A stretch of DNA of 34,286 bases from Verrucomicrobiota bacterium (GTDB taxonomy: Bacteria; Verrucomicrobiota; Verrucomicrobiia; Chthoniobacterales; UBA10450): positions 1 through 34,286 of the forward strand of contig QHOS01000032.1 of NCBI GenBank assembly GCA_003219415.1, read 5' to 3'. Below are positions 3,221 to 29,485 of the stretch, one piece after another (position 1 is the stretch's first letter; each line of letters begins with the position of its first letter). Both the position numbers and the translations under genes were made by a program. The notes under the pieces are model-generated. The model did not search any database. It was given only the letters and a program-made list of their open reading frames with translations, and had not been told where the DNA came from.

Positions 3221-3916
3221 TTACAAGCGTGAACGCGTCGTGACGGAAAGCGGTTCGGCCGTCTCCAGGGTTTTGATCACGGTGCTGAGATAAACCGATT
3301 TGGGATAAATTGCTCTGTATTTCGTGATCTCCGCTCGATTCAGCACTTTGAATCCGTAGCGCTCGAACATTTTCTCTCCGCGTCGGCTTTCGAATGTAAC
3401 AATCTGGCCGTAAACGCGTTTTTCACCGGAGCGGTAGAGATAACTTAAATACGCGCTCATCAAGGCGCGTGTCGTCGAAACCTTGCGCGCGTCTGGCAGC
3501 AGATTGATATGAAAATGTGGCGTGCGTCTCGGCGCTGCCGGCACCTCACGCCAACCATACACGAGCAGCCACCGAATAAATCGGCGCGAGCGTTCGCGGT
3601 AGCGGAAATATCGCGTCAAGGAGCGAAAAAAGAGCCAGACGTTTTGGTAAAGCGCGTACACCTGGTTCTGCAGAGGCTTGCGAGATCCCAGAAGATACCC
3701 CCGAATTTCGCCATCTACTTCAAGCAAAAAACACGACTCGGGTTCGTGATCGGTGTAATAGGTAGTGAGAAAGTCAGCGAACAATTCTCGATCTTCATAC
3801 ACGGGATCAATCGGCTCGCCGAGAAATCCGGTATCACAGCAGAGCTTTCTTACCGCTTCGCGGTCCGATCTGCGATAGCCACGAATGAGGAACGGCCTAT
3901 GGTCGTCGTCCGTCAT
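3221..3916 (-). CDS. GNAT-family N-acetyltransferase
   Basis: The 231-residue product begins IRGYRRSDREAVRKLC, the usual opening strand and helix of GNAT enzymes, followed by FLLEVDGEIRGYLLGSRKP (beta strands 2-3) and a C-terminal FERYGFKVLNRAEI resembling the conserved GNAT end. The Q/R-x-x-G-x-G/A acetyl-CoA loop is not evident; the equivalent place, after HFHINLLPDAR, reads KVSTTRALMSAY. The middle (about residues 85-125) is unusually rich in Arg and aromatics. The start codon overlaps the glycosyltransferase stop as ATGA, implying coupled translation. Acylation of an amino sugar or of the glycosyltransferase's product is a plausible role, but the substrate is unknown. Confidence 0.75.
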   Translation of the reverse strand: MTDDDHRPFLIRGYRRSDREAVRKLCCDTGFLGEPIDPVYEDRELFADFLTTYYTDHEPESCFLLEVDGEIRGYLLGSRKPLQNQVYALYQNVWLFFRSLTRYFRYRERSRRFIRWLLVYGWREVPAAPRRTPHFHINLLPDARKVSTTRALMSAYLSYLYRSGEKRVYGQIVTFESRRGEKMFERYGFKVLNRAEITKYRAIYPKSVYLSTVIKTLETAEPLSVTTRSRL

Positions 3917-5127: not shown

Positions 5128-5155
5128 TGCAGGGATGGTGAAAGGTCCAACTCGG

Positions 5156-5204
5156 CGCTTCGCACCCGCCTTCGCTGAACTTCGGCGTGCCAGCCAGCGA
5201 AGCG
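5156..5204. repeat. Nested palindromic element between trxB and the GT4 gene
   Basis: CGCTTCGC (5156-5163) is matched by GCGAAGCG (5197-5204), and between them CGCC and GGCG can form an inner stem around TTCGCTGAACTTC. The two-level hairpin occupies most of the 93-base gap between the trxB stop and the longest GT4 start. It resembles REP-like intergenic palindromes and might also slow or terminate transcription, but has no T-run. Confidence 0.45.
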
Positions 5205-5220
5205 ACTACAGAAGCGACGA

Positions 5221-6150
5221 TCAAGCATCGGACTCCAATTCGCTCAGGTATTTCTCCGCGTCCATTGCGGCTGCGCAACCCGATCCGGCTGCTGTCACGG
5301 CCTGCTTGTAAACGCGATCAGCCACGTCACCCGCAACGAACACACCGGGGTGTCTGCTCTCGACCAGCTTCTTGGTAATCAAATAACCGTCCGAATCCAT
5401 GTCGAGCTTGCCGCGATAGGCCTTGGTGTTGGGATCGTGACCAATTGCCACGAAAACACACGCCACCGCCAATTCCTGCTCTTCATTCGTTTTGACGTTG
5501 CGCAAACACACGGCGCGCATCTCGCCTTTTTCATCCGGAATGTATTCCGTAACCACAGTGTCCCAGATCGGTTCGATCTTCTTATTCGCAAACACACGAT
5601 CCTGCATGATTTTGGAAGCCCGCATCTTATCGCGTCGATGAACCAAGTAGACCTTTGAAGCGAAACGGGTGAGGAACAATGATTCCTCCGCTGAAGAGTC
5701 GCCTCCACCAACGACGCAAACCGGAACATTTTTGTAAAACGCGCCGTCGCATGTGGCGCAGGAGGTCAGTCCGTGACCTATCAGTTTCTGTTCATTTTCG
5801 AGTCCCAAATACCGCGCTGAAGCTCCGCTGGCGATGATCAACGCCTCTGTCTCCAACCACTCATCATCGGCTTTGATCCGAATATGCCGGTTGCTGGCAT
5901 CGAAATCGGTAGCCTCGGCGTACGAAAATCGGGCGCCAAACTTCTCGGCCTGCTTATGCATGTTCAGGATGAGCTGAGGTCCGTCGATTCCTTCTGGGAA
6001 ACCGGGATAGTTTTCAACAAGCGTAGTAGTCGAGAGTTGTCCGCCGGGGTGCCGACCTTCCAACACCAACGGGCTCAGATTCGCGCGAGCCGCGTAAATT
6101 GCCGCTGTCAATCCAGCGCAGCCGCTTCCAATAATGATCACTCTTTCCAT
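5221..6150 (-). CDS. trxB: Thioredoxin reductase
   Basis: At 309 residues this is a full-length low-molecular-weight thioredoxin reductase, the FAD enzyme that passes electrons from NADPH to thioredoxin. Visible elements are the N-terminal FAD loop (IIIGSGCAGLTAA), GRHPGGQLSTTT, the redox pair C131-A-T-C134 followed by DG, the NADPH loop VVGGGDSSAEE, the HRRDKMRAS segment that contacts the NADP phosphate, and the C-terminal GDVADRVYKQAVTAAGSG. The FAD loop carries Cys where GSGPAG is usual. It starts at ATG. It lies 98 bases downstream of the molybdoenzyme on the same strand and may share its transcript. Confidence is very high. Confidence 0.97.
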   Translation of the reverse strand: MERVIIIGSGCAGLTAAIYAARANLSPLVLEGRHPGGQLSTTTLVENYPGFPEGIDGPQLILNMHKQAEKFGARFSYAEATDFDASNRHIRIKADDEWLETEALIIASGASARYLGLENEQKLIGHGLTSCATCDGAFYKNVPVCVVGGGDSSAEESLFLTRFASKVYLVHRRDKMRASKIMQDRVFANKKIEPIWDTVVTEYIPDEKGEMRAVCLRNVKTNEEQELAVACVFVAIGHDPNTKAYRGKLDMDSDGYLITKKLVESRHPGVFVAGDVADRVYKQAVTAAGSGCAAAMDAEKYLSELESDA

Positions 6151-6188
6151 CGATAAAATCTAGCACACAGCGCAAGTTGTTGCGGGGG

Positions 6189-6217
6189 GCGACCTCGCGT
6201 CGCGGTGGCAAGCCACC
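6189..6217. repeat. Two adjacent short hairpins upstream of trxB
   Basis: GCGAC/GTCGC (6189-6203, 5-base loop) is followed directly by GGTGGC/GCCACC (6204-6217, 2-base centre). They lie between the molybdoenzyme stop and the trxB start. No T-run follows on the minus strand, so termination is uncertain. Confidence 0.3.
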
Positions 6218-6248
6218 TCACCCGCCAGATGCGCGGAGACAGGGCCAG

Positions 6249-7799
6249 CTACGCCGTCACGCGCACGCCAATCTCATGCAAGCCTGCTACGCCGGAAAAT
6301 GGGCCTCTATCTTCTTCCCATTCCTGCACATCGCCTTCTCCGTCTGTGGCCCGGGCGACCAACATGTAGTCACCTGCAGCATCTGGCATCCATTCGGTTT
6401 TCCAAAGCGACCATGCCAGATTGCCGCCGGAATAATAGATCTCAGCGTCGCGCCACGATTTGCCGCCGTCGCTGCTCAATTCCACGCGTGAGATACCACG
6501 GTCACCACCGTAGGCGATTCCCTTCACTTCAATCGGCCCGTTCAATTTGCCCAACGCGAACGACGACCAGGGATCCGGCACATCAATTCTCGATCTTGTC
6601 GGCGTGATAAAATCGGGGCCCCAGCCTTGTGCCTCGTAAAATCCTTTCGCGGTCGCGTCAGTCACTTCAATTCGGGTGAGCCATTTCACATGTTTTTCGC
6701 CGAAGTAACCTGGGACGATGAGACGCAACGGATACCCGTGCCGATCGGGCAACTCTGCGCCGTTCATTTCATAAGCAAGTAACGTGGTTGGCTCCAGCGC
6801 CTTCTCGAGCGGAATGGTATCGGTGTAATTGTCGACACCACTAAAGCGGACCCGCGCGGCGCCAGAAAGTGGGACGGCCCGATCCAGAACGTCACGCAGT
6901 GGAAAACCTTTCCAGACAGCATTGCTGATCAGTCCCGCATCCAGACCGTTGCTGATGCACATCAGCGTTGTTTCCTGCTCCTTCATTTCAAATCCCAACA
7001 GATCGTCGAACCGCCACGTGGCGGCGTTCTTCACGAGGCCGACTACTTCAAGATGCCAAAGATCAACATCCACCCGCGGATCGACGACATTCTTCGTCAC
7101 GCAATAAAACAATTCGGTAGGCGTGATCGGCTGGACAATGCGGCCTTTATACTGCGTGCCGTCGTAACTAAAGGTCGCCGCACGATAAAGCTTGCGAGCC
7201 AACGCAATTCCACCGCCCGTAACTGCAGCTCCGACTACGCCAAGGACAAAAGCACGCCGTCCGATCGCCGGGCTGAATTCATAGTCCCGATCGCCGATTG
7301 TTCGTTGTGTAACAAATCGAAAACCAGTCACGAGTGTTCGTTCGAATAGAAAAACGCACAGAGCGAAACTAACGAGCGTGACCAGACGCGCAGCGCCGAT
7401 GGGCAAGCCAATGTAGCTCGTGCCCAAAACCGGCCAAAGCGCGATCGCAAGCACTACGATCGGCAACAAAACGAATATCGACATGGTCCGGATCGCAGAA
7501 GCTCCCGCAGGATTGCGGCGCGAGAACAATCCAAAGATCGCTCCGGCCATTGCGCCAACGATGAGTTGACCAGCTATCGTCGACCCAACGCCGAGTTGCT
7601 TGAGATGATTGTAACCGCCGACCTTGCCCATAATGGAAAGAAACGGACCGGGCGGAATGAAAACCGAAAGTCGATCGCCAATAATTACAAGTGGTGTAGC
7701 CACGCCCAGCACAGCGAGCAATAACATCGCCGCGGTCATCACGACTCCGGCGAGCAATCCGGCGAGTAGTCCAGCGAAAATTGCCTTCGTTCTATTCAC
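6249..7799 (-). CDS. Membrane-fused sulfite-oxidase-family molybdopterin oxidoreductase
   Basis: The 516-residue protein has two parts. Residues 1-205 hold about four hydrophobic segments (around 8-40, 72-95, 105-130, 137-160), then GRRAFVLGVVGAAVTGGG, a fifth segment resembling a Tat signal with paired arginines. From about 215 it is a sulfite-oxidase-fold Moco domain: TLMCISNGLDAGLISNAVWK, where the Cys is the probable molybdenum ligand, then DRHGYPLRLIVPGYFGEKHV and WLTRIEV. An Ig-like dimerisation domain follows (VKGIAYGGDRGISRVELSSD to the end). Start is GTG. Such enzymes oxidise sulfite or reduce S- or N-oxides; the substrate here is unknown. No cytochrome or YedZ-like partner is adjacent. 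Confidence 0.87.
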   Translation of the reverse strand: MNRTKAIFAGLLAGLLAGVVMTAAMLLLAVLGVATPLVIIGDRLSVFIPPGPFLSIMGKVGGYNHLKQLGVGSTIAGQLIVGAMAGAIFGLFSRRNPAGASAIRTMSIFVLLPIVVLAIALWPVLGTSYIGLPIGAARLVTLVSFALCVFLFERTLVTGFRFVTQRTIGDRDYEFSPAIGRRAFVLGVVGAAVTGGGIALARKLYRAATFSYDGTQYKGRIVQPITPTELFYCVTKNVVDPRVDVDLWHLEVVGLVKNAATWRFDDLLGFEMKEQETTLMCISNGLDAGLISNAVWKGFPLRDVLDRAVPLSGAARVRFSGVDNYTDTIPLEKALEPTTLLAYEMNGAELPDRHGYPLRLIVPGYFGEKHVKWLTRIEVTDATAKGFYEAQGWGPDFITPTRSRIDVPDPWSSFALGKLNGPIEVKGIAYGGDRGISRVELSSDGGKSWRDAEIYYSGGNLAWSLWKTEWMPDAAGDYMLVARATDGEGDVQEWEEDRGPFSGVAGLHEIGVRVTA

Positions 7800-7905
7800 A
7801 GCGGTGGTCGATCTTGTCGGCTTCCCGCCACAAGGGGATCAAATTGCCAGATTCCTAAGAACGAATTGCTCATTAAACTTGGCGACTTCGCTGCGGCAGG
7901 ATTTT

Positions 7906-8394
7906 TCATTTGATCCGCGCCATCGCGTAAGCGTCTACGAAGTCCCCGTCGCGGAACGCATACTTGCGATGCGTGCCTTCAATCTCGAATCCAAATTTGC
8001 GATAGAGCGCGATCGCAGACTGGTTGTCCGTGAAAACTGTCAGTTCGATTCGCGCAAGGTTTAGCCATTTGTCGGCTAAATCAATCACCGCCCGCATCAT
8101 CGCCGTGCCGACGCCTTTGCCATGCCAGTCGTCGCGAACCATCATCCCGATTTCGCCTCTGTGATTGACTCGCGGCCTCGAAGACGTATGCAGGCCGATC
8201 ACGCCCACGACCTCGTCATCAATGGCTGCGACCAAAATGTGATCGCCTTCTCCACATTTGGTCAGTTGCTCACGAACTGAATCGAGGCTGCGGTAAGGCA
8301 TTTGCAGCGTGTTGCGAACGGCCAGCGGCGCAGTGTAACACTTCCAGATCGCTTCGGCGTCCGAAGGTCCAGCTCTGCGTACGGCGATCTCCAT
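7906..8394 (-). CDS. YhhY-like GNAT N-acetyltransferase
   Basis: The 162-residue protein follows E. coli YhhY (AaaT, an L-amino-acid N-acetyltransferase) along its whole length as I recall it: NTLQMPY near the N-terminus, VAAIDDEVVGVIGLH, the acetyl-CoA loop RDDWHGKGVGTAMM, IELTVFTDNQSAIALYRKFG, GFEIEGTHRKYAFRDGDFVD and a final AYAMARIK. It would transfer acetyl from acetyl-CoA to an amine, probably an amino acid, in the cytoplasm. I chose the ATG at 8394; a TTG two codons upstream (8400) would add two residues. It appears to be a stand-alone gene about 100 bases from either neighbour. Confidence 0.9.
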   Translation of the reverse strand: MEIAVRRAGPSDAEAIWKCYTAPLAVRNTLQMPYRSLDSVREQLTKCGEGDHILVAAIDDEVVGVIGLHTSSRPRVNHRGEIGMMVRDDWHGKGVGTAMMRAVIDLADKWLNLARIELTVFTDNQSAIALYRKFGFEIEGTHRKYAFRDGDFVDAYAMARIK

Positions 8395-8494
8395 ATTCAA
8401 TTCATGTTAGTCGCCGTCCACTCACTGCCGATCCTTCGCTGAATCCAATCGCGAGCCTAAACTGTCGGCGGCAAGCATCGTTTCCAAAGTTCGA

Positions 8495-9715
8495 TCAAGG
8501 CGATGAAAGGCAATTGGCCGCCTCCGCTGGACTCTTTGCACTCCCAAGGATTTTTCTTACGCGCTCCACCACCATCGCTGAAGTAACTTGCTTCATGCAG
8601 GCGTGATCAAACGGGCATTGGCTCAAGCGACGGTAATTGCATGGCGAACACGGTAAGTCCACGCGCACGACCGATTCTGGTCGCTCGTACGGGCCAATAT
8701 GAACCGGATTGGTCGGACCGAAGACACTGACCATCGGTTTGCCGAGCGACGCGGCAACGTGCATCGAGCCCGAATCGTTGGTTACGGCGACCTCAGCACG
8801 TCGAATAAGGGCTGCCAAATCCGCTGGGGTTGTCTTTCCTGAAAGATCGCACGCGCCTGGCGCAGCCGCGGCGATCTGCCGGCAGCGCGGCTGGTCGCGC
8901 TTGGTGCCCGCCAACGCGACGGCAAATCCCTCGCGGAGAAAATGCCGGGCGACACCCGCGAACCCTTCAATCGTCCAATGCTTCGTCTCCCAAATGGTTC
9001 CAGGCACTAGAACAACCAGTGGCTGAGCCGCATCGACACCTTTCTCTTTCAGTAATCGCTCAATGTTACGTACGGTTCCCGAAGAAAGGTGAATTGTTAA
9101 ATCTGGCGGATTGTCGTCGAACCCAAGCAGTTTTCCGACCCACAGGTAACGATCGATTGCATGCACGTCGAGCGTCGGAATAGGAATATGATGCGTGTAT
9201 GCGATCCATGAACCCTCGCGCGCGCCACGCCAGCCATGGCTGGGTACGTTTTTGAGATCGTGCTCGGTGGAAATTGTAAGCGTTCGTTTGACCGGCCGAT
9301 CAAACCCGATGCGAACGCGCGCGCCACTGATGAGCACGAAAAAAGCCGAACGCACCTGGCCATGCATGTCGATCACCAGATCGTACTTCGCGCGGCGAAT
9401 CTGTTTGAGCAGATCGAGAAATTCCAGCATCGCTCGCCATCTGCGACCTCTTTGCGAGAAATCGCGCCGAGCAAAAAGAACGACATTCGAAAGCGCCGGA
9501 TGGCAGCGCACGATCTCCGCGTTCTCAGGCGTGATCAGCCAGTCAATCCGCGCACGCGGATAACGGGCGCGCAGTTTCACCAGCACCGGGATCGTGTGCA
9601 CGACATCACCCAGCGCCGAGGGCTTAATTAGCAAGATCCGCGAGAATTCGGCGGATCGTAGTGCCGATGCGTCTGAATCCCTTGGGGTTTCAATCTGACC
9701 GTTCAATTGCTGCAA
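8495..9715 (-). CDS. GT9-family glycosyltransferase (heptosyltransferase-like)
   Basis: The protein (about 400 residues) has the ADP-heptose:LPS heptosyltransferase (WaaC/WaaF/WaaQ) fold. It shows the N-terminal ILLIKPSALGDVVHTIPVL, the nucleotide-binding VLVPGTIWETKHWTIEGFAG and VTNDSGSMHVAASLGKPMVS followed by VFGPT. Near the C-terminus four Cys occur in DLPCSPCNYRRLSQCPFDHA plus the following CM, as in many GT9 proteins. It likely adds heptose or another sugar to LPS core at the inner face of the inner membrane. The longest frame begins at TTG (9715) and carries about 22 residues before the domain, so the true start may be later. A heptose adenylyltransferase is encoded at 22122-22607, consistent with ADP-heptose use. 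Confidence 0.9.
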   Translation of the reverse strand: MQQLNGQIETPRDSDASALRSAEFSRILLIKPSALGDVVHTIPVLVKLRARYPRARIDWLITPENAEIVRCHPALSNVVLFARRDFSQRGRRWRAMLEFLDLLKQIRRAKYDLVIDMHGQVRSAFFVLISGARVRIGFDRPVKRTLTISTEHDLKNVPSHGWRGAREGSWIAYTHHIPIPTLDVHAIDRYLWVGKLLGFDDNPPDLTIHLSSGTVRNIERLLKEKGVDAAQPLVVLVPGTIWETKHWTIEGFAGVARHFLREGFAVALAGTKRDQPRCRQIAAAAPGACDLSGKTTPADLAALIRRAEVAVTNDSGSMHVAASLGKPMVSVFGPTNPVHIGPYERPESVVRVDLPCSPCNYRRLSQCPFDHACMKQVTSAMVVERVRKILGSAKSPAEAANCLSSP

Positions 9716-9761
9716 AGTAAATCAAACCGGGCAGCGTAGCTACAGCTCGCTGGTCGGACGC

Positions 9762-10409
9762 TTAGGCCGCCTGTTTTTCGCCTGACAGCGCGCCGCGCAT
9801 TTTTTTCATCCACGCGGAAAACCGATGCCTGTTCTGCTCGCGCCGTACTACCGCCTCACTCGTAACCCAGTTGAATTGAATGACCCGGCGTGGGCCGGAA
9901 AACGGTCTGTGACCGTGCCACGAATTATTGCTGCGGCGAAACGCCAGCAGCGTGCCTTCGGTTGGCGGCACTTCGAGAATGACGTCTTCCAGATTCGTCC
10001 CGGATCGCAGCAAGCGAAGCTGGCCGCCAGAAGATTCCCAAGCCGAATTCATGTAAACAAGAATAGTGATGATCTTTGTCTCGGAATCGGTGTGGATCTT
10101 ACCATCTTTCTCGCTACAACGGCCGCGCACGGTGATCATGTCCGGGCGATTAGTCAGATCGACGTCAAATTTTGCCTCGAACGCTTTGCGAAACTCCTCG
10201 CTGCGCATCTCCTCGATCAGCTTCGCAAACGCCGGGCCATAAGTCACCTCTCGAAGGGGAAAGCTACCCGCCCGGGCAACCTCGGGATAATCCTTATCGA
10301 TTGCAGCGCGCGCCTCAGTCTTTACAAACTCTGGAACAATTAAAAACTCAAACGGTTCACGGGTGAGCGGCGTGGTGCGAAATCTCTCGAGATCAAGCAT
10401 CGAAACCAT
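9762..10409 (-). CDS. 2OG-Fe(II) oxygenase (prolyl-4-hydroxylase-like)
   Basis: The 215-residue protein carries the non-haem iron triad of the P4Hc-type 2-oxoglutarate oxygenases: H106-T-D108 in GKIHTDSETK, and the distal His (H165) in NNSWHGHRPFSGPRRVIQFN with Arg 174/175 placed to bind 2-oxoglutarate. PPTEGTLLAFRRS precedes the distal His as usual. It would hydroxylate a substrate with O2 and 2-oxoglutarate. The substrate could be a protein, sugar or lipid; neighbours on the same strand are glycosyltransferases (46 bases to the GT9 gene, 45 bases from GT2), so a glycan or glycolipid is possible but inferred only from position. Start ATG at 10409, with a second Met three codons in. Confidence 0.87.
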   Translation of the reverse strand: MVSMLDLERFRTTPLTREPFEFLIVPEFVKTEARAAIDKDYPEVARAGSFPLREVTYGPAFAKLIEEMRSEEFRKAFEAKFDVDLTNRPDMITVRGRCSEKDGKIHTDSETKIITILVYMNSAWESSGGQLRLLRSGTNLEDVILEVPPTEGTLLAFRRSNNSWHGHRPFSGPRRVIQFNWVTSEAVVRREQNRHRFSAWMKKMRGALSGEKQAA

Positions 10410-10454
10410 ACGGCGACGCTACACAAAAACTCAGGAACTGCCAGATGGAATCGA

Positions 10455-11141
10455 CTACCCGAGAGCGACGCGCATTAATGTCGCGGCAATGCGCGCACCA
10501 GCGACAAATGTACCACGCAACGTGCCTGATACTTTGGATTGGCCACCGGCACGCCGGCGATGGTTCACGGGTATTTCGAGAACACGCAGGCCGTCGCGCG
10601 CGGCTTTCATCTGCATCTCCAAATTCCAGCCGTAGGTCTGCTCGCGCATGTCGAGCCGTTCGAGCGCATCACGACGAATGGCACGAAATGGAGACATGTC
10701 CGTATAACGAACCCCGTAGAGCAGTCGCAAAATCAATCCAGCGAGTCGTCCGGCAAAAATTTGCTGGAGATTCAGGCTGCCCGGTTCGCGTTGTCCGCGG
10801 GTTCGCGAGCCGATCACGAAGTCGTGCGTCCCCCGTGCCACGGGTTCGACAAGCTGATTCATGAACGCGGGCGCGTCGCTGCCGTCGCCATCGAGAAAAA
10901 CCGCAATGTCGCATTTGGGCGAAAGCGCACGAACGCCTGCGGCACACGCGCGTCCGTACCCGCGCGGCGCGGTCACCACGCGCGCACCGGCTTCACGAGC
11001 GCGTTCGGCCGTGCGATCAGTGCTGCCGTTATCAACGACAATGACCTCGTTAGGCAAACCTGTCGCAAAACATTCCCGCACGACGCCGGCGATCGGTTCC
11101 TCCTCATCAAGCGCGGGGATAATGACCGAGACGCTGCTCAT
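10455..11141 (-). CDS. GT2-family glycosyltransferase (dolichyl-phosphate-mannose-synthase-like)
   Basis: The 228-residue product is a single GT-A domain: VSVIIPALDEEEPI, NEVIVVDNGSTDRTAE, the catalytic D84-G-D86 in AVFLDGDGSD, and DFVIGSRTRGQ, then TDMSPFRAIRRDAL and EIPVNHRRRAGGQSKVSG, typical of DPM1/polyprenyl-phosphate glycosyltransferases. It likely loads a hexose onto a polyprenyl phosphate. There are no C-terminal membrane helices. The ATG at 11141 overlaps the stop of the MgtE-like gene as ATGA; an upstream in-frame start at 11156 would lie inside that gene. The overlap implies coupled translation and a related function. Confidence 0.9.
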   Translation of the reverse strand: MSSVSVIIPALDEEEPIAGVVRECFATGLPNEVIVVDNGSTDRTAERAREAGARVVTAPRGYGRACAAGVRALSPKCDIAVFLDGDGSDAPAFMNQLVEPVARGTHDFVIGSRTRGQREPGSLNLQQIFAGRLAGLILRLLYGVRYTDMSPFRAIRRDALERLDMREQTYGWNLEMQMKAARDGLRVLEIPVNHRRRAGGQSKVSGTLRGTFVAGARIAATLMRVALG

Positions 11142-12160
11142 CGCAAAACCAACCACGCACTAGTGAAATAAATCACCAGTGCAAAAAAATCCGCCAGTGC
11201 CAGTGTGATCGGTCCTGCCGCAATTTTTGGATCCAGCCTGAATCGGTGAAGAAGCGACGCCACGCCCAGGCCAAACCCGCACGCCGTGACGAGCGAAAGT
11301 GCGATGCTACCGCCGATGACGAACGCCGCAGCGCCATTATTTCGCCACAGCCAAACAACCAAGCCGACCACAAGACCACACGCGGCGCCAAGTAGAATCG
11401 CGGTCACCAACTCTCGACGAAATGCTGTAGCCAGCCAGCGCCACGTAACTTGAGCAGAACGCAACGCGTGAATCGTTACGCTCATCGATTGCATGCTCAC
11501 GCTTTCATTTAGTCCCAGCACCATTGTGAGAAAGAACGCCAGCACCAAACTGTGTGCGAGTGTCGTTTCAAAAAAGCCGGCCAGGATTGCTGAGAGGGTG
11601 CCGCCCGCGACCGTGACCAGCAACCACGGAAAACGGAACCGGAAAATGCGCCACGGCGAAGCGCCGCGGATTTGTTCGATGTGAAAGCCGAGAGCCTCAA
11701 AGAAATCCGGACTCACCTGCGTGACAGAACTGCCCCCTTCTCGGGCTGTACCGTCGCCTGCCTCCAAAATTTCTTCGGCGAAAAGGTTCGCGTCGATGAT
11801 GCCCACCACCCGGCGTTGCTCATCGACGACTGGGAATGCTAGAAATTTGTAGAGCACAAAAAATTCGCAGGCGTCAAGGATCGTTGCGCTGGCGGGAACA
11901 GCCACAACGCGCGGAACCATGATCTGGCGCAACGGTGTTTCCAACGATGCTGTCAACAAACGGCGGGTAGGAACGACGCCAACCAGCCGTTCCTGTTCGT
12001 CCATCGCATAAAAATAAATGACCCGTTCGCCCACGCCTTCACGCCGGATGCGTTCCAGCGCTTCACCTACGGTCATGCCCGCGCGCAGCAGCGGAAAATC
12101 CTTGCGCGCGTGATCGACCACCGGTGCATTAAAATCGGGAATGGTGGCGGCGATGTTCAT
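11138..12160 (-). CDS. MgtE-like divalent-cation channel/transporter with CBS pair
   Basis: The 340-residue protein has two CBS domains (about 20-75 and 80-135; ACEFFVLYKFLAFPVVDEQR) and a membrane domain with about five hydrophobic segments (176-340). FFLTMVLGLNESVSMQSMSV matches the MgtE pore-helix region, and DPKIAAGPITLALADFFALV keeps the Asp (D324) equivalent to the Mg2+-selecting Asp of MgtE. The N-terminal MgtE_N superhelix (about 110-130 residues) is absent, so Mg2+ sensing would rely on the CBS pair. Both ends overlap neighbours as ATGA, with the epimerase gene upstream and GT2 downstream. A role supplying metal to, or regulating, the glycosyltransferases is speculative; family assignment is good. 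Confidence 0.85.
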   Translation of the reverse strand: MNIAATIPDFNAPVVDHARKDFPLLRAGMTVGEALERIRREGVGERVIYFYAMDEQERLVGVVPTRRLLTASLETPLRQIMVPRVVAVPASATILDACEFFVLYKFLAFPVVDEQRRVVGIIDANLFAEEILEAGDGTAREGGSSVTQVSPDFFEALGFHIEQIRGASPWRIFRFRFPWLLVTVAGGTLSAILAGFFETTLAHSLVLAFFLTMVLGLNESVSMQSMSVTIHALRSAQVTWRWLATAFRRELVTAILLGAACGLVVGLVVWLWRNNGAAAFVIGGSIALSLVTACGFGLGVASLLHRFRLDPKIAAGPITLALADFFALVIYFTSAWLVLR

Positions 12161-13278
12161 CGCTTCACTCGATGAACGATGCCTTTGTTCTTCAAAATTT
12201 CGCTAGCTTCGCTGAAGTAATCACGAATGTCTGATTGGGCGCGGATCCAATCAATGTAACGACCGATGCCTTCGCAGAGATCGACAGCCGGTTCGTAACC
12301 AGCCGAGCGAGCGAGCGACGTGTCGCTAACGAGATGTCGCATTTCGCCGGGACGAAATTCGCCGTTGATCTCAGGCGCGATGTCGACGCTCAGAGCATCG
12401 GAAAGTTGTTCGGCGATTTCGCGAATCGGCGTGCCGCGGCCGCTGCCAATGTTCACTGGCAGTCCGTCGAGCTCGCCCGTTTCCGCGGCAAGCAAATTCG
12501 CTCGGGCGATGTCTTCCACGAACGAAAAGTCGCGTGTTTGCTGCCCGTCTTCGTACAGAACAGGTGGCAAATTGTTCAGCAAACGCGTGCAAAAAATCGC
12601 GATCACACCGGTGTAAGGATTAAAGATCGATTGGCGCGGTCCGTATGTGCAGGAGTAACGCAGCGCGACCGTGGGGATACCGAGCTGTTTCCCCCATAGG
12701 AGGACCAGCCGCTCCTGATCAACTTTCGTCAGGCCGTAAACGGTTTCGCCACCGACCGGCGCATTTTCCGGAGTCGGAACGCTTGTTGTGGTTGCGCCGC
12801 AGATTGGGCAATGCACCTGCCAATCGCCGTTGCGCAATTGCTCCACCGGACGCAACATCGGAAAAACCAATCCATGTTTAGGACAATCGCCCGCGCCTTC
12901 GCTGTAGACAGCCTGCGAGCTGGCGACCACGACTTTCTTAACCGGCAGGTTTTTCTCGCGGATGACCTCGAGCATTTGGGCAGTGCCGAGCGAATTTACA
13001 TGCACAAATTTCGTAATCTCTGGCATGTAACCGCCGTAGGCAGCTTGGTGAAAAACGACGTCCGTCTTGTCTAGCGCGGCGATAATCGTGTCGCGATCAC
13101 GCAAATCGCCGTAAGTGAATTCCGCCTTCTTGTTGATCCAGGTCGGCTTTCCGCGACGGTGGGTTTGCGGTTCCAGGTTATCGAGCGCCCGAACCTTCCA
13201 GCCTTCGTTCACGAGAAGGTCGACCACATGTGAGCCAATTAGGCCGGCGCCGCCGGTGACTAATGCGCGCTTTGCCAT
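12157..13278 (-). CDS. NAD-dependent sugar epimerase/dehydratase with Cys/His insertion
   Basis: This 373-residue extended short-chain dehydrogenase has the Rossmann loop VTGGAGLIGSHVVD, the catalytic Y181-G-L-T-K185, SSQAVY at 120-125, and RDFSFVEDIARANLLA, typical of nucleotide-sugar 4-epimerases and dehydratases. Between residues 130 and 165 an insertion carries C132-x2-H135 and C157-x2-C160, which could bind zinc; I recall a similar insertion in proteins annotated as dTDP-L-rhamnose 4-epimerase, but the substrate is not certain. It starts at ATG and ends in an ATGA overlap with the MgtE-like gene. A perfect TATAAT about 27 bases upstream suggests the trio has its own promoter. Confidence 0.88.
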   Translation of the reverse strand: MAKRALVTGGAGLIGSHVVDLLVNEGWKVRALDNLEPQTHRRGKPTWINKKAEFTYGDLRDRDTIIAALDKTDVVFHQAAYGGYMPEITKFVHVNSLGTAQMLEVIREKNLPVKKVVVASSQAVYSEGAGDCPKHGLVFPMLRPVEQLRNGDWQVHCPICGATTTSVPTPENAPVGGETVYGLTKVDQERLVLLWGKQLGIPTVALRYSCTYGPRQSIFNPYTGVIAIFCTRLLNNLPPVLYEDGQQTRDFSFVEDIARANLLAAETGELDGLPVNIGSGRGTPIREIAEQLSDALSVDIAPEINGEFRPGEMRHLVSDTSLARSAGYEPAVDLCEGIGRYIDWIRAQSDIRDYFSEASEILKNKGIVHRVKR

Positions 13279-13304
13279 GCGAATGTGAGGCTAGTCACGT
13301 AGCT

Positions 13305-13310
13305 ATTATA
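13305..13310 (-). promoter_or_regulatory. Candidate -10 box for the SDR/MgtE-like/GT2 trio
   Basis: The minus strand reads TATAAT at 13310-13305, 26 bases before the epimerase ATG, inside the 80-base gap after the DUF2064 gene. No good TTGACA-like box lies 16-18 bases upstream, so this is a partial promoter match only. Confidence 0.35.
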
Positions 13311-13358
13311 GGACAACTGCTTCTGTTCCTCTCGGGTTCAGCAAGCAAAGCGCCCGGC

Positions 13359-14150
13359 CTACAACGACCAAATCCGTCCGCGATCATCGCGCGCGATAAG
13401 TTCGCGCAGAAATTCTGTAGTCTGAGGCGCGATACTATCGCGCGCATTTCTGCCCAGCAGTTCATCGCAAAGTCGATGTAGCGCCGCGCGATCGTCCACG
13501 TCAAAACCGCGAGGCAATTCATGAACCCTGACACCGATTTGGGTCGCGCGCTGGCTGGTTTGCTCGAAAACTTGTTCGGTGCTCCAGTCGATTCGCTCGA
13601 AGAGCTCTCGGTGCAATCCTTTTAGTCCAATCAAATAATAACCACCATCTTCGCAAGGGCCCAGGACGATCCGATCGCCCGGCAACGAAAGGAGCTCTAT
13701 AGCTTGGGCAAAATTCCCGGCAGGAACGGTCGGACTGTCAGAATCAATCAAGCAGACGGCGTCGAAGCCGCACTTGAACAAGTCCTCGGCCGCAAAATAC
13801 AGGCGTTCGCCGAAATTTTTGCCGCGCTGTGGCAGCAAACTGAAATCGGTGGGCAGAATATCAGTATAGTCTGACTCGGAACCGACCGGAGTGTAAACCG
13901 CAACCCCACGTACGCTTGGCCGGCCGGGGCTTGGTGCAATCAGGCTGCTGCAATAAGCAGAAATCGCTGCACCTGTATCCCGCAAGAAACACCTGTTAAG
14001 TTGCACGGCTTCCTCATTCGTCAGCGGCGGGACAAGGCGCGTTTTTACCTGTCCAGCGCGAGGCGCCTTGGTCATCAGCGCCAACGCCGAGCAGCCACCA
14101 AAATTCTTAGGCGGTCTATTCGGATCAACAACGCGATGATCCCTTCTCAT
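13359..14150 (-). CDS. DUF2064 / TIGR04282-type glycosyltransferase-like protein
   Basis: The 263-residue protein matches the family called rSAM/selenodomain-associated transferase 1. It shows LALMTKAPRAGQVKTRLVPP at the N-terminus, the QRGKNFGERL segment, DAVCLIDSDSPTVPAG (metal-binding DxD-like), LGPCEDGGYYLIGLK and the C-terminal ELPRGFDVDDRAAL. The fold is a small GT-A/nucleotidyltransferase. Family members are often beside GT2 enzymes, as here (GT2 at 10455-11141), but the reaction is not established to my knowledge. About 23 residues precede the usual family start. It lies 18 bases after the methyltransferase, likely on one transcript. Confidence 0.87.
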   Translation of the reverse strand: MRRDHRVVDPNRPPKNFGGCSALALMTKAPRAGQVKTRLVPPLTNEEAVQLNRCFLRDTGAAISAYCSSLIAPSPGRPSVRGVAVYTPVGSESDYTDILPTDFSLLPQRGKNFGERLYFAAEDLFKCGFDAVCLIDSDSPTVPAGNFAQAIELLSLPGDRIVLGPCEDGGYYLIGLKGLHRELFERIDWSTEQVFEQTSQRATQIGVRVHELPRGFDVDDRAALHRLCDELLGRNARDSIAPQTTEFLRELIARDDRGRIWSL

Positions 14151-14168
14151 TCGTTGCGCTGTCGGTTG

Positions 14169-14948
14169 CTATCCTTTTTCGCAAAGAGCGTACTGGTAGC
14201 GCCCATCCTTCCAAGTCCTAATCTTTTTCCATGGTTGCGCCAGGAAAAGGTTCGCAAATGCATCCCCCGAAAATACTGTTGCTTTGTATGGTTCCCGAAA
14301 GCCATTTTCGGAGGGAACTAACCCTACGAGAAGCCACATCGCCAAAAGTGGAATTGATGCCCAAAAGGCGTAGCGCGGTTCGGCAACGAAACAGCGACCA
14401 CCTGGCTTTAAAACGCGGTACATCTCAGCGATGACGCCTGCTTGTTCGGGCAAAATAGTGAGTAATCGCGAAGCCAGGACGACATCAAACGCTGCCTCGG
14501 GACACGACAACTTGAGCGCATTGATTCGTTTAAAACAGCAATTACTCAGCTGAAGCGCCTCGGCTCGGTCGTTGGCCCACTGCACCTGTTTGCCAGAGCG
14601 ATCCACTCCAGTGATGGACATTTCCCGAAAGCGCTCTCCCAATCGGCATGAGTAAAAGCCGGGCCCGCATCCGAGTTCAATTAGGGTCGTTCCCGGAGCA
14701 GGACGCCCCTCCGGCCAAAGAGCTGTGATAATGCGCTTAGTATCGTCACGAAAAAGGTGTTCGCGACAGAACGCATAAACCCAGGTGGCGTGCTCGAAAA
14801 GACTGTCATTTTTGTAAGGTTGGTACGCACATGTGTTTGAAATTGCTGTTGGCTCATGAAGTGGAACCTGTTCCTGCTGCATTTTATCGTTGTTTCCAGT
14901 AGCACAATCGGTTCTCGTTTCGTTTTTCGGTGTCAAAAAGTTTTCCAC
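14169..14948 (-). CDS. Class I SAM-dependent methyltransferase
   Basis: The 259-residue protein has SAM motif I (TLIELGCGPGFYSCRLGERF), an acidic loop at the end of strand 2 (ITGVDRSGKQVQWAN), FDVVLASRLLTILPE and the post-motif RVLKPGGRCFVAEPR. A hydrophobic segment near residues 205-220 (ASIPLLAMWLLVGLV) could touch the membrane. The acceptor is unknown; with glycosyltransferases downstream a sugar, lipid or quinone is possible. The longest frame starts at GTG (14948); an ATG at 14882 would remove 22 residues that look disordered. It is the first gene of the minus-strand run and faces the cyclase gene across a shared upstream region. Confidence 0.85.
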   Translation of the reverse strand: MENFLTPKNETRTDCATGNNDKMQQEQVPLHEPTAISNTCAYQPYKNDSLFEHATWVYAFCREHLFRDDTKRIITALWPEGRPAPGTTLIELGCGPGFYSCRLGERFREMSITGVDRSGKQVQWANDRAEALQLSNCCFKRINALKLSCPEAAFDVVLASRLLTILPEQAGVIAEMYRVLKPGGRCFVAEPRYAFWASIPLLAMWLLVGLVPSENGFREPYKATVFSGDAFANLFLAQPWKKIRTWKDGRYQYALCEKG

Positions 14949-15016
14949 AGCTGGTAATGAATTTGATGAGAGTTTTCACTCTTCTGTAGTCTTCTTCTAA
15001 TTGAGAATAAGTCAGT

Positions 15017-15035
15017 CTAATGCACCACGCATTAG
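15017..15035. promoter_or_regulatory. Operator-like inverted repeat in a divergent intergenic region
   Basis: CTAATGC (15017-15023) and GCATTAG (15029-15035) are perfect 7-bp arms around ACCAC. The 19-base dyad lies in the ~220-base gap between the methyltransferase (-) and the cyclase-family gene (+), a typical place for a repressor site. Another small dyad, AGAGT/ACTCT around TTTC, lies near 14970. No regulator gene is in the window. Confidence 0.4.
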
Positions 15036-15167
15036 CCGTCGGGATGAACTGTTGATAACATCAGCATGGAATGCCGACAGCTTTGGTTTTTCGAAGAAGG
15101 ACGCGACTTATTCAAAGTTATTCGAAGATATTGGCTTCTTAATGTGAAATGCTTTAACAAGGCGCAA

Positions 15168-15994
15168 ATGCCCATTAAGAAAATCTTCTTGTGGAGTGTG
15201 GGCCTGTCCCTCGCGGCTTTTTCCTCGGTATGGAGCGCCGAGGAACCGTCGCTTTGGCAAATTCAACAGATTCTTGCCGGCAAACGATATGTAGACCTGA
15301 CGCACGAGTTTGCACCGGGAATCCCGCACTGGCCGGGGTTTCCGGATGAGGCACGCAAAACAATTTACTGGTATGAGAAGCGTTCTAACGTCATGGGAAC
15401 AGGTTTCTTCTCCGAACTGTATACGCATGTCGGCCAATGGGGCACGCATGTGGATTCCCCTGCTCATTTCATAAAGGGACTTCGCACCGTAGATCAGATC
15501 GATCCAAAAGAATGGTGCTACCTCTTGTTATCATCGATGTGCACGACGAGGCTGCAAAAAATCCCGATTACACGCTATCGCTCGAGCGCGTGAAAAAATG
15601 GGAGACAAATCACGGACCAATTCCCGCCGGTGCGTTTGTTGCGATGCGGACTGATTGGTCGAAGCGCTGGCCCGACGCGGCAAGGATGGAAAACAAGGAT
15701 GCCAACGGTATTGCACATTATCCCGGATGGGGTTTGCCGGCGTTGAAGTATCTTTATGAGGAGCGAAAGATCACCGCATCAGGTCACGAGACGACAGATA
15801 CCGATCCGGGAATCGCCACCAGCAAAGACGATTACTCGCTTGAAACGTACATTCTCAGCACAAACCATTATCAGATCGAACTGCTTACCAATCTCGATCA
15901 AGTCCCCGAAGCCGGCGCAATTGCGATAGTAAGCTTTCCAAAACCAAAAGGTGGCTCGGGGTTTCCAGCGCGGGTGTTCGCGATTTTGCCCTGA
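15168..15994 (+). pseudogene. Cyclase-family (kynurenine-formamidase-like) protein, frameshifted
   Basis: Two overlapping frames together make one secreted cyclase-family protein. The first, from ATG 15168 (AAGG 5 bases upstream), has signal peptide IFLWSVGLSLAAFSSVWSAE, then RYVDLTHEFAPGIPHWPG and the metal-binding HVGQWGTHVDSPAHF. It runs out of homology at DPKE (about 15512). The second frame resumes with MVLPLVIIDVHDEAA (ATG at 15512) and continues through RTDWSKRWPD and ITASGHETTDTDPG to 15994. One base is missing at about 15510-15512 (GAATGG where GA-x-ATGG is needed). Family members hydrolyse formamides or related substrates with a divalent metal. It is a recent pseudogene or a sequencing/assembly indel; the rest of both halves looks intact. 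Confidence 0.85.
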
Positions 15995-16103
15995 AATTGA
16001 TTGCAACCGGGCTGCTGCGGTTTACGCCGATAATATGGTTGAAAATGTTTTTTCGGTGAGTTGACCAAAAGTCGCGGGACGAACGAAGGTAGGCGCCGAG
16101 TCC

Positions 16104-17027
16104 ATGCACATTACCGATATCATGCGGGGAGATTCTCCCACGTTTTCGTTCGAGTTCTTTCCGCCGAAAACCGCACAGGCGGCTGAGACTCTTTATCAAA
16201 CGATTCGCGACCTCGAGTCTTACATGCCGCATTTTGTCAGCGTGACGTACGGTGCCGGCGGCTCAACACGTGATTTGACCCACGGTCTCGTCGAGCGCAT
16301 TCAACACACAACAAAGCTCGACCCGATTCCCCACCTTACCTGCGTGTGTCACAACGAAGAGGAGATCGAAGCCATTCTCCTTCGATACGCCCAGTCGGCC
16401 ATTGGAAACGTTCTCGCGCTCGGCGGTGATAGGCCGGTTGGAATTGCCTACGATAAAGCGCGAGACTCGTTCCAACATGCAATCGATTTGGTTAAATTCA
16501 TTCGCCGGTTCAACGAGTCCGGCGCGCATCCGGACCGCCGCGGTTTCGGGATCGGAGTGGCTGGCTTCCCCGAAGGACATCCTGCCACCCCGAATCGATT
16601 GCTCGAAATGGATCACTTCAAAGCGAAAGTAGACGCCGGCGCCAACTACATCGTCACTCAGCTTTTTTTTGACAATCGCGATTTCCTCGATTTCCGCGAA
16701 CGCTGTGCTCTCGTCGATATCAACATCCCCATTATCGCTGGCATCATGCCGATTACCACCCTTAACGGTTTCAAACGAATAGCGGAGCTGGCTGGCGGCG
16801 CGCGATTCCCAGCCCGGCTTCTGCGCGCCCTACAGCGTTGCCAAAACGATCCTGAGATGGTCAGGCGTGTAGGGCTGCATTTCGCGATAGAACAATGTCA
16901 CGACCTCCTGGACAATGATGTTGCCGGGATTCACTTCTACACACTCAACCGTTCCGACGCTACCCGGATGATCTTTGACAGCCTCGGTATTCCGCGTCGC
17001 AGAAATGCCGAGCCCTCGAGTGTCTAG
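16104..17027 (+). CDS. metF: 5,10-methylenetetrahydrofolate reductase
   Basis: The 307-residue FAD-dependent TIM-barrel enzyme reduces methylenetetrahydrofolate to 5-methyltetrahydrofolate for methionine synthesis. Visible hallmarks are FSFEFFPPKT with the catalytic Glu, SVTYGAGGSTRD, HLTCVCHN, VLALGGDRP (FAD phosphate contact), GVAGFPEGHP, DAGANYIVTQLFFDN and IIAGIMPI. Length is normal for bacterial MetF. The ATG at 16104 gives the standard MHITDI start. No other methionine gene is adjacent; the downstream VTT gene follows after 80 bases. Confidence 0.97.
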   Translation: MHITDIMRGDSPTFSFEFFPPKTAQAAETLYQTIRDLESYMPHFVSVTYGAGGSTRDLTHGLVERIQHTTKLDPIPHLTCVCHNEEEIEAILLRYAQSAIGNVLALGGDRPVGIAYDKARDSFQHAIDLVKFIRRFNESGAHPDRRGFGIGVAGFPEGHPATPNRLLEMDHFKAKVDAGANYIVTQLFFDNRDFLDFRERCALVDINIPIIAGIMPITTLNGFKRIAELAGGARFPARLLRALQRCQNDPEMVRRVGLHFAIEQCHDLLDNDVAGIHFYTLNRSDATRMIFDSLGIPRRRNAEPSSV

Positions 17028-17107
17028 TTAGGTAATACGAATTTCTCGTCCCGATAATGCAGCTGGCGAGATTTGCGCGAAGCCAGTGACGCGAGCAGAA
17101 TTTGCGC

Positions 17108-17878
17108 ATGCCGAAGGTCAGCCGCGCGATTTGCTGGCAAGTTGGAGCGCTCGTTATCGCAATTGTAGTGGCAATTGTGCTTTCGCGCTTCGTTCCGATT
17201 GTCAGTTTTATCGAAGCATCGCAACAGCATGTGATGAGTTGGGGGGCCTGGGGAGCTGTTTGCTATCCACTGCTTTTCGCCGCTTGCAATATTCTTCTGC
17301 TGCCCGGTGGCATTCTCGCGGTCGGCGGAGGTTTCTTTTTTGGGTTGTGGTGGGGATTTTTTATCGTGCTGGTGGGTAACCTCGTTGCCACGGCAATTTC
17401 CTTTGCGTTAAGCCGATGGATCGCCAGACGATGGTTTCAGCAGAAACTTTCACGTAACCCAACCCTGCGCGCATTGGAGCCTGCGGTAGAACGCGAGAGC
17501 TGGAAGATTATTCTGTTGAGTCAGCTGCATCCACTTTTCCCAACGAGCTTATTGAATTATTTTTACGGCATAACGCGAATCCCGTTTGGCAGCTACATGC
17601 TTTGGGCGTCGATCGGACGGGCGCCTGGCCTTTTTTTGTATGTTTACGCCGGCACCCTGGGTCAGTTTGCAGTGCGCATTATGCGGGGCAAAAGTTATCC
17701 TCGCATGATTGAGTATTGGATATGGGGAGGCGCGTTTGTAACTACAGCACTGCTTTTGATAGTGCTCGGCCGCATGGCATATGCCGCAATACAGACTTCG
17801 CACAATTCGAAAAGACCAACAGAGGACGCAAACGCGAGTCATCAAATACAAGTAAATAACTCATCGCCAATCAGTTAA
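17108..17878 (+). CDS. TVP38/TMEM64 family (VTT domain) membrane protein
   Basis: The 256-residue protein has an N-terminal helix ([20 protein letters not shown]), then the VTT/DedA-like core: [40 protein letters not shown], the re-entrant region [20 protein letters not shown] and a Gly-containing [16 protein letters not shown]. It ends with one more helix and a hydrophilic tail. These proteins sit in the inner membrane, and related DedA proteins handle phospholipid or undecaprenyl-phosphate movement; the substrate here is not known. I chose ATG 17108; a TTG at 17102 would add two residues. The stop is 7 bases before the mnmG start, so co-transcription is likely. Confidence 0.88.
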
Positions 17879-17885
17879 CGCAACT

Positions 17886-19787
17886 ATGAGATTTAGGATA
17901 CCGACAAAATACGATGTAGTGGTAGTCGGCAGCGGCCATGCTGGAATCGAGGCTGCACTAGCCGCGGCACGAATTGGATGCCGGACTTTGATGTTGACTC
18001 AAAACTTAGACACGATTGGGCAAATGTCATGCAATCCAGCGATTGGTGGGCTCGCCAAGGGACATATTGTCCGCGAGATAGACGCCCTGGGGGGCGCAAT
18101 GGGCTTGAATGCCGACGCTACAGGAATTCAGTTTCGAACGCTTAACAGGACAAAGGGGCCATCGGTCCAGGCGCCACGGGCACAGTGCGACAAGAAGGCT
18201 TATCAATTCCGCATGAAGGCCATTTTGGAATCGACAGAAAATCTCGACCTTAAACAAGGAACCGTCTCGCGCCTCCTTACTCAGGATGGAAAGGTCGCCG
18301 CGGTAGAAACGGACTTAGGGTTAACAATTGCTGCCCGAAGTGTCGTGATTACTTCTGGGACATTCCTACGGGGCCTCTTGCACGTTGGCGAAGCAACCAA
18401 GGTTGGAGGACGAATGGCCGATGCCAGTTCGAATCTCAGCGATAATCTTCGGCAGTTAGGTTTCCAAGTCGGTCGATTCAAGACAGGCACACCGTGTCGC
18501 TTAAACGCGCGATCGATTGATTTTTCTCGCTGCGCGATCCAACCTGGCGACGAACCGCCGCCGACCTTCTCGTTCTATGAAGAGGAGATTGGTGACTACG
18601 AAGGAGAAACCTTTACGCTGAACCGCGTTCGCAGCGGAAAGTTCCACGTGGAACAAGTGCCCTGCTGGATAACTCATACTACCGAAAGAACGCATGAGAT
18701 CATTCGCGCCAATCTTGGGCGCTCCCCGCTCTATGCTGGCCGGATCAAGGGGACCGGGCCCAGGTATTGCCCATCGATCGAGGACAAGGTTGTAAAGTTC
18801 TCTGATAGGGCGTCGCATCAACTTTTCCTTGAGCCGGAAGGCCGCCACACAAAAGAATATTACGTAAACGGCATCTCCACCAGTTTGCCATACGACGTTC
18901 AGCTTGAATTCTTACATTCAATCCCCGCTCTGGAACGAGCCGAGATAATGCGCCCTGGATACGCAGTGGAGTACGATTATTTCCCGCCAACCCAACTCTT
19001 CCCGACTCTCGAAACGAAGCTGGTCGATGGATTGTATTTCGCCGGTCAGGTTAATGGGACTTCAGGCTATGAAGAAGCGGCGGCGCAAGGTTTGATTGCG
19101 GGTGCAAACGCCGCCTTGAAGCTTCAAGGCCGTTCGCCCCTAGTGCTCGATCGAAGCAAAGCGTACATCGGGGTTCTAATTGACGATCTCGTCACCAAAG
19201 GCACCGAAGAGCCTTATCGTATGTTTACAAGCCGCGCCGAGGGTCGGTTGTTTTTGCGCCACGACAATGCTGATCAGCGCCTGACGCCCCGTGCATTTGA
19301 CGTGGGATTAGTGGGTCACGGACGGTGGACTCGCTATAGGGAAAAGCTGCGTCTTTTGGATCAGGCGCGACTGTTAGCCGCCCAGACCAAGCTCAATGGC
19401 CTCCCGATCGCTCAATTACTCAAAAGACCCGAGTTTCGGGCCCAGGACCTGCCGTTAGAACTTCTTTGTCTCGTGCCCATGGCAATCTGGCAGTTAATTG
19501 AAACAGACTTCAAATACTCGGGTTATGCAGAGCGACAATCAGACCAGAATCGGCAGCTTGAGCGTAGGCAGGAGCAAGCGATTCCAAATTGGCTGAACTA
19601 TGATGAAATTCCTGGGCTTCGCTCTGAAACGAGACAAAAACTAGCGACCACTCGGCCCAATTCGCTGGGACAGGCCGGTCGGATAAGCGGAATTACGCCA
19701 GCTGATGTTGCTATAATATCTATATGGTTATCTAAGAATAACTTATGTAGACAGTCGACTATGGAAGTAGCCGCAAACTCCGAGTAA
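17886..19787 (+). CDS. mnmG: tRNA U34 carboxymethylaminomethyl-modifying enzyme MnmG (GidA)
   Basis: The 633-residue FAD protein works with MnmE to install cmnm5U34 in certain tRNAs. It has [40 protein letters not shown], the GidA signature [45 protein letters not shown] and [20 protein letters not shown]. The C-terminal helical domain ends with [18 protein letters not shown] as expected. Length is normal. The ATG follows the VTT gene by 7 bases, and plsY begins 6 bases after the stop. No mnmE is in the window. Confidence 0.97.
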
Positions 19788-19793
19788 CCTCTG

Positions 19794-22607: not shown

Positions 22608-22762
22608 GTGTTTTCTCAAAATAGACGAGAACTATGCGTTAAGGGCGGCAAAAAGGCGCGGAAAAACTCCTAAACAAGTCGAGATGGGATCTTTGAGTAA
22701 TTGACGTCTAGCCGCAAAAATCTGCGGTTGGCCTTTTCTTGATTTGAGCCAATTTGTAGAAA

Positions 22763-29484: not shown

Positions 29485-29485
29485 T

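Follow-up and report, generated by a model that had tools for sequence, protein, structure and literature searches.

Within the methylthioxylose (MTX) locus of Mycobacterium tuberculosis (Rv0535-Rv0541c), Rv0539 (MtxS) forms MTX-P-C50 and Rv0541c (MtxT) transfers MTX (PMC8780516), the donor originating from methylthioadenosine (MTA) (PMC11127046). Rv0535 is given as MTA phosphorylase in a reference of PMC5738077, and Rv0536 is galE3 (PMC9765663). According to a 2024 PNAS paper, the existence of the methylthioxylose modification outside lipoarabinomannan assembly is unclear (PMC11127046). The locus considered here lies in a stretch of 34,286 nucleotides (the window), which is an entire contig (C157) of the 3.6 Mb draft genome of a Verrucomicrobiota bacterium (assembly GCA_003219415.1, contig QHOS01000032.1). 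It encodes a DUF2064 protein, an extended short-chain dehydrogenase/reductase (SDR) and a family 2 glycosyltransferase (GT2), which together form a conserved core. Lipoarabinomannan is not known to us from organisms of this kind. The DUF2064 protein of M. tuberculosis is presumably Rv0540.

The window resembles the M. tuberculosis locus in having a GT2 of the polyprenyl-phosphate-sugar synthase type and an SDR epimerase, and islands of genes in actinobacteria add MTA phosphorylase, DUF2064 and a GT-C membrane glycosyltransferase to the likeness. It differs in having neither a GT-C nor a linked phosphorylase, in having an MgtE-like protein and a molybdenum cofactor (MoCo) enzyme, and in that its SDR belongs to a separate clade. 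The statement in an earlier reading made without database searches (the sequence-only reading) that the gene combination matches no known pathway was therefore too strong. The interpretation favoured here, with a probability of roughly 60%, is that DUF2064, SDR and GT2, in most cases joined by the MgtE-like protein and the MoCo enzyme and sometimes by a methyltransferase, form one functional unit that produces a monosaccharide donor, linked to polyprenyl phosphate, for a glycan or glycolipid of the envelope. It is favoured because of the linkage of SDR to DUF2064 (57/57 genomes) and to GT2 (52/52), the persistence of the core where its flanks change, gene fusions, the clustering of the same families elsewhere, and the DUF2064 and GT2 trees. 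The genes concerned are as follows.

14169-14948, minus strand: class I S-adenosylmethionine (SAM)-dependent methyltransferase (Pfam Methyltransf_31/11/25); optional core member
13359-14150, minus strand: DUF2064/TIGR04282 protein with nucleotidyltransferase fold (TIGR04282 157.6 bits, cut-off 134); core
12157-13278, minus strand: extended SDR, NAD-dependent sugar epimerase/dehydratase (Pfam Epimerase); core
11138-12160, minus strand: MgtE-like membrane protein (Pfam MgtE and CBS); frequent, dispensable
10455-11141 (from ATG; 11156 if GTG), minus strand: soluble GT2, dolichyl-phosphate-sugar synthase/AglJ type (Pfam Glycos_transf_2); core
9762-10409, minus strand: 2-oxoglutarate (2OG)-Fe(II) oxygenase (Pfam 2OG-FeII_Oxy_3); inserted cassette, outside the core
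8495-9715, minus strand: family 9 glycosyltransferase (GT9), heptosyltransferase type (Pfam Glyco_transf_9; TIGR02195 140.6 bits, cut-off 134.6); second gene of the cassette
6249-7799, minus strand: membrane-anchored molybdopterin oxidoreductase with sulfite oxidase fold, the MoCo enzyme (Pfam Oxidored_molyb, 1.3e-45); probable unit member

Extent and conservation of the core

The sequence-only reading described a single cluster of seven minus-strand open reading frames (ORFs), and its account of the layout is confirmed: all seven predicted ORFs lie on the minus strand at 8495-14948, their families agree with Pfam and NCBIfam profile matches, the gaps from methyltransferase to GT9 are 18, 80, -4, -4, 45 and 46 bases, thus at most 80, and inspection of the sequence bears out both ATGA overlaps, that of SDR with MgtE and that of MgtE with GT2. 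However, the minus-strand run continues unbroken past 8495, through genes for a GNAT protein, the MoCo oxidoreductase, a thioredoxin reductase, a family 4 glycosyltransferase and an unnamed ORF, to 3221; the gaps are 93-106 bases, apart from one of -4. Thus, the outer limit of the seven-gene cluster is arbitrary, and its proposed membership left out the MoCo gene.

The SDR or a close relative is detected in 80 of 117 relatives, with 76-80% identity between genera within the window's family. The family comparison covers 14 genera, adjacency being counted for genomes with both genes on one contig, and presence or absence for family loci with enough sequence. SDR adjoins DUF2064 in 57/57 genomes and is no more than 3.5 kb from GT2 in 52/52. 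DUF2064 and GT2 are present in 30/30 and 31/31 loci, respectively, while the MgtE-like gene (25/31), the MoCo gene (22/26) and the methyltransferase gene (18/30) are variable, and the GT9 and oxygenase genes are found in 7/28 and 5/29. The surrounding block, bounded by the unnamed ORF (3221) and G3P dehydrogenase (21418), is also syntenic across much of the family, and thus gene order alone is weak evidence. However, the core is retained despite altered flanks in three loci (L052, L063 and L066). In a related family (f4), where the methyltransferase is 60% identical, methyltransferase, DUF2064, GT87, a metallo-beta-lactamase (MBL) and SDR are encoded on one contig and MgtE and GT2 on another; the two contigs probably join. 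Outside the family, SDR and GT2 are fused in a Rosetta-type protein of 614 aa in Streptomyces sp. BHT-5-2 (L223:5091-6935) and are direct neighbours in Nonomuraea gerenzanensis (L225), and GT2-GT-C fusions are found in two loci (L081 and L203). DUF2064-SDR-GT2 is a real conserved core, and its association is beyond chance.

The core of the original proposal is therefore real and conserved and its polyprenyl-phosphate-sugar function plausible, although the unit was wrongly delimited. Neighbourhood comparison had been expected to return either the full seven-gene order or only the trio joined by ATGA overlaps. Neither outcome is seen: a trio is indeed conserved, but it is DUF2064-SDR-GT2. The MgtE-like gene, which bears both overlaps, is lost or moved in several genera; in G037, G043, G035 and G055 it lies at another place in the genome. 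A second MgtE-like gene in the window genome, on contig C83, was read by eye. The methyltransferase is missing from 12/30 family loci, and methylation is thus optional.

Predicted functions and comparison with the methylthioxylose pathway

The folds of the core proteins are fixed by solved relatives. The DUF2064 protein, the sole one found in its genome, has the fold of PDB 3cgx and retains the motifs KTRL, DSDSP, GP..DGGYY, WST and DVDD. A literature search on DUF2064 found nothing; on the basis of fold and gene context, the protein is proposed to be a sugar-1-phosphate nucleotidyltransferase. The SDR carries a zinc-ribbon-like CPxH...CPxC insert (CPKHG...CPIC) and a YxxxK motif (YGLTK). The best PDB relative of the GT2 is dolichyl-phosphate mannose synthase 5mlz, and its match to the AglJ model (122 bits) is under the equivalog cut-off of 325. 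With an acidic DGD motif present and the family motifs kept, it is probably a polyprenyl-phosphate-sugar synthase of the DPMS/AglJ/GtrB type. This predicted role is shared with the three-component GtrA/GtrB/GT-C system of periplasmic glycosylation; unlike in that system, the window GT2 is short, without apparent membrane segment, and the cluster has neither a GtrA flippase nor a GT-C. The MgtE-like protein has two CBS domains and an MgtE channel domain, aligning with residues 164-470 of Thermus thermophilus MgtE; it lacks the N domain of the MgtE Mg2+ transporter and retains an Asp towards the end of its channel domain. The PDB match of the MoCo enzyme is sulfite:cytochrome c oxidoreductase, of the sulfite oxidase fold; the sulfoxide reductase MsrP belongs to the same superfamily.

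A scan of 84,980 species genomes for the GT2 family returned 80 loci from many phyla. Within 6 kb of the GT2, a GT-C membrane glycosyltransferase is encoded in 48/77 loci and DUF2064 in 21/77, across many phyla. These neighbours and the fusions tie the GT2 to polyprenyl-phosphate-dependent glycosylation, which supports the suggestion of the sequence-only reading that a sugar is activated and loaded on polyprenyl phosphate for use in a glycan or glycolipid of the envelope. Within the window's order, GT2-DUF2064-GT-C clusters are found in family f5, where the MoCo gene adjoins DUF2064 (L197), and a GT2-GT-C fusion plus DUF2064 in family f9. Fusions in other classes of the phylum join GT2 to GT-C (L081), or to both DUF2064 and TIGR04283 (L080). 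The latter (L080:6599-8998) is a single-ORF triple fusion, GT2-DUF2064-TIGR04283, beside a GT87-type GT-C.

Seven islands in Actinomycetota all encode GT2, DUF2064 and GT-C with a related SDR nearby (7/7); MoCo is found in 6/7 and MTA phosphorylase in 2/7. Several of the GT-C calls are based on homology among islands and hydrophobic sequence, with no Pfam or NCBIfam model. The gene order is MoCo, hypothetical, methyltransferase, hypothetical (GT-C-like), MTA phosphorylase, SDR, GT2, DUF2064 in Rhodococcus AQ5-07; GT2, DUF2064, methyltransferase, GT87, MTA phosphorylase, SDR, hypothetical, MoCo in Arthrobacter U41; and SDR-GT2 fusion, DUF2064, GT-C-like protein, methyltransferase, MoCo in Streptomyces BHT-5-2. 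Comparable sets are found in Streptomyces NBC_01237, Kitasatospora and Nonomuraea (where MoCo was not found), and on an M. abscessus plasmid, where SDR is 11 kb off, next to a second MoCo gene. The actinobacterial plasmid islands thus share with the window GT2, DUF2064, a related SDR, a methyltransferase nearby and usually MoCo, and differ in their GT-C and occasional MTA phosphorylase and in the distant sequences of SDR and methyltransferase. An island on Methylobacterium plasmids (L220 and L221) has the order cytochrome b, MoCo, hypothetical, DUF2064, GT87, radical SAM, GT2, aminotransferase. It carries the closest outside GT2, a DUF2064 of the same clade as the window's and a MoCo enzyme, but lacks SDR and MgtE-like genes and has GT87, radical SAM and aminotransferase genes. 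The radical SAM enzyme and pyridoxal phosphate-dependent aminotransferase take the place of SDR.

In the DUF2064 tree, which was built without long-branch rows, window-like sequences (families f1, f4, f5 and Methylobacterium) form a clade with the seven actinobacterial ones (support 98/97). In the GT2 tree, the window sequence is sister to that of the Methylobacterium island (100/93), its closest relative outside the lineage at 55% identity; the tree does not settle the position relative to actinobacterial GT2s. Zinc-ribbon-like inserts are present in the window SDR clade and in some actinobacterial SDRs.

On the best reading, by analogy, the core would work like the mycobacterial methylthioxylose pathway (MtxS/MtxT). 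DUF2064, judging from fold and context, would first couple a sugar-1-phosphate to a nucleotide, and the SDR, as expected of its family, would then epimerise or otherwise change the nucleoside diphosphate (NDP)-sugar. On the cytoplasmic side, the GT2 would then place the sugar on polyprenyl phosphate, as its family and its GT-C partners elsewhere suggest. Once flipped, the sugar would be joined to its acceptor by an enzyme that is unlinked or unrecognised, and the MoCo enzyme may finally oxidise or reduce the attached sugar, perhaps at sulfur. This enzyme probably belongs to the unit, as its gene is also near DUF2064 in Methylobacterium and six actinobacterial islands; that it acts on a sugar sulfur is speculation.

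A phosphorylase near DUF2064 recurs in the islands with MTA phosphorylase and in arsenosugar-type loci, which fits a sugar-1-phosphate substrate and suggests that DUF2064 uses 5-substituted ribose-1-phosphates released from modified adenosines. A general role of DUF2064 as activator of such sugar phosphates is suggested by this. The most likely class of sugar is a nucleoside-derived 5-substituted pentose, of which a methylthio-pentose is one candidate, itself tentative. Correspondingly, a methylthioxylose-like pathway outside mycobacterial lipoarabinomannan, in which DUF2064, SDR and GT2 would place an MTA-derived sulfur pentose on an envelope glycan, with MoCo acting at sulfur, is possible though doubtful; the actinobacterial and Methylobacterium islands would then be relatives. 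The islands, above all those of Rhodococcus and Arthrobacter with MTA phosphorylase, SDR, GT2, DUF2064, GT-C and MoCo together, open the question of methylthioxylose outside lipoarabinomannan to direct test in soil bacteria that are harmless.

Several observations weigh against the proposed unit and its resemblance to methylthioxylose synthesis. No MtxT-type GT-C is encoded within the window cluster, and a GT-C of the type found in L057 is unmatched in the window genome and its genus. The one GT87 of the genome, on contig C83, was rejected as the missing GT-C, since it is not recognisably akin to the partner GT-Cs. The genome does encode an MTA phosphorylase (score over cut-off), but on a different contig and with unrelated genes as neighbours. 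The window SDR constitutes a clade of its own, apart from all other SDRs sampled, and uniting it with the actinobacterial SDRs in one clade is neither supported nor rejected (approximately unbiased test, p-AU 0.13). The MoCo gene is missing from some family loci and, as the region is syntenic family-wide, its link to the unit comes mainly from other phyla. The window and island methyltransferases are not close kin; a shared methyltransferase was rejected, with no homology past the SAM motif.

Alternative explanations

The SDR could instead be a dTDP-L-rhamnose 4-epimerase (WbiB/Tle) or an NDP-pentose 4-epimerase, in which case the unit would make a polyprenyl-phosphate deoxyhexose or pentose of no nucleoside origin, like the donors of O-antigen side chains. 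Tle is a proven dTDP-rhamnose 4-epimerase in which residues 128-165 form an extended element and Y181 is catalytic (PMC11549994). The CPKHG...CPIC insert and YGLTK of the window SDR correspond in position to this element and Y181, Tle being compared by its published description, and the nearest SDRs from beyond the lineage (40-46% identity) are mostly in polysaccharide-type loci, that of Xanthomonas adjoining UDP-glucuronate decarboxylase. However, the cluster contains no rml or other gene for NDP-sugar synthesis, and DUF2064, the branch of which accompanies MoCo enzymes and in two islands MTA phosphorylase, is left unexplained. This alternative is considered unlikely.

Arsenosugar biosynthesis, in which ArsS forms dimethylarsinoyl adenosine, a phosphorylase frees the sugar phosphate, and its glycosylation falls to DUF2064 and GT2, is improbable as the role of the cluster. 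The over-cut-off TIGR04282 match carries an NCBI name that implies such a role, the window genome encodes ArsS together with a TIGR04283 enzyme (contig C120) and no second DUF2064 was found in it, and in Bacteroidota GT2, GT-C, DUF2064 and ArsS occur in one cluster. Arsenosugar clusters (ArsS, TIGR04282, TIGR04283, DUF547) share the DUF2064 family with the window and, in some phyla, the GT2 family, but their DUF2064 is of a different branch. However, ArsS and the window cluster are on different contigs (C120 and C157), ArsS is found within 8 kb in 0/13 of the window-family DUF2064 loci scanned, and an SDR is not usual in arsenosugar loci. The window-like DUF2064s belong to the 98/97 clade along with ArsS-free islands, and all 10 ArsS-linked DUF2064s in the tree fall outside it. 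Grouping the window-like sequences with the main arsenosugar branch, apart from the actinobacterial DUF2064s, is rejected (p-AU 0.021). The ArsS-linked rows are not a clade, and a test uniting all of them with the window group (p-AU 3e-62) was set aside for this fairer one. On this tree evidence, the arsenosugar pathway is rejected as the best reading for the window DUF2064, and the database name "arsenosugar biosynthesis glycosyltransferase" is argued to be wrong for one DUF2064 branch.

In the window genome, L102:8055-12474 has ArsS and, about 3 kb off, a TIGR04283 enzyme with no DUF2064, and is thus an arsenosugar locus minus its usual partner. L082:7946-12652 has a DUF2064-TIGR04283 fusion with ArsS, an AglJ-like GT2, DUF547 and a VTT protein. 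A methyltransferase match near GT2 in a Flavobacterium-type locus (L162) was discarded, as it resembled ArsM on inspection. On Burkholderia glumae plasmids (L250:4347-6702), the MTA phosphorylase, TIGR04283 and TIGR04282 genes are consecutive.

That the conserved order is inherited synteny alone, with no common pathway, is very improbable despite the 3221-21418 block being syntenic across much of the family, as the core holds when its flanks change and the same families cluster in other phyla, with SDR and GT2 fused in a Streptomyces.

The oxygenase-GT9 cassette and neighbouring genes

The oxygenase, to which a hydroxylation step had been attributed, and GT9 do not belong to the unit. Within the family, the oxygenase is confined to part of the window's genus, where it adjoins GT2 in 13/14 comparable genomes. 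In three genomes (G109, G100 and G012), it is directly before GT9 without the core. As the pair travels alone, the seven genes are not one operon, and the oxygenase and GT9 make up a two-gene cassette of their own. Most likely, the pair acts in making the lipopolysaccharide core and came to lie next to the core unit by insertion. GT9 scores above the NCBIfam cut-off for heptosyltransferase II (TIGR02195). A domain resembling HldE domain II (ADP-heptose adenylyltransferase/synthase) at 22122-22619 on the minus strand scores 174.5 bits, just below the cut-off of 181.5.

A cyclase gene (PF04199) at 15066-15994 on the plus strand is broken across two frames, by a frameshift or an assembly error; its near-identical relative in L038 is an intact ORF of 309 aa. 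At 28534-30475, also on the plus strand, a sugar nucleotidyltransferase gene is followed by one for an APH-fold kinase, like the MurU/AmgK pair of cell-wall recycling.

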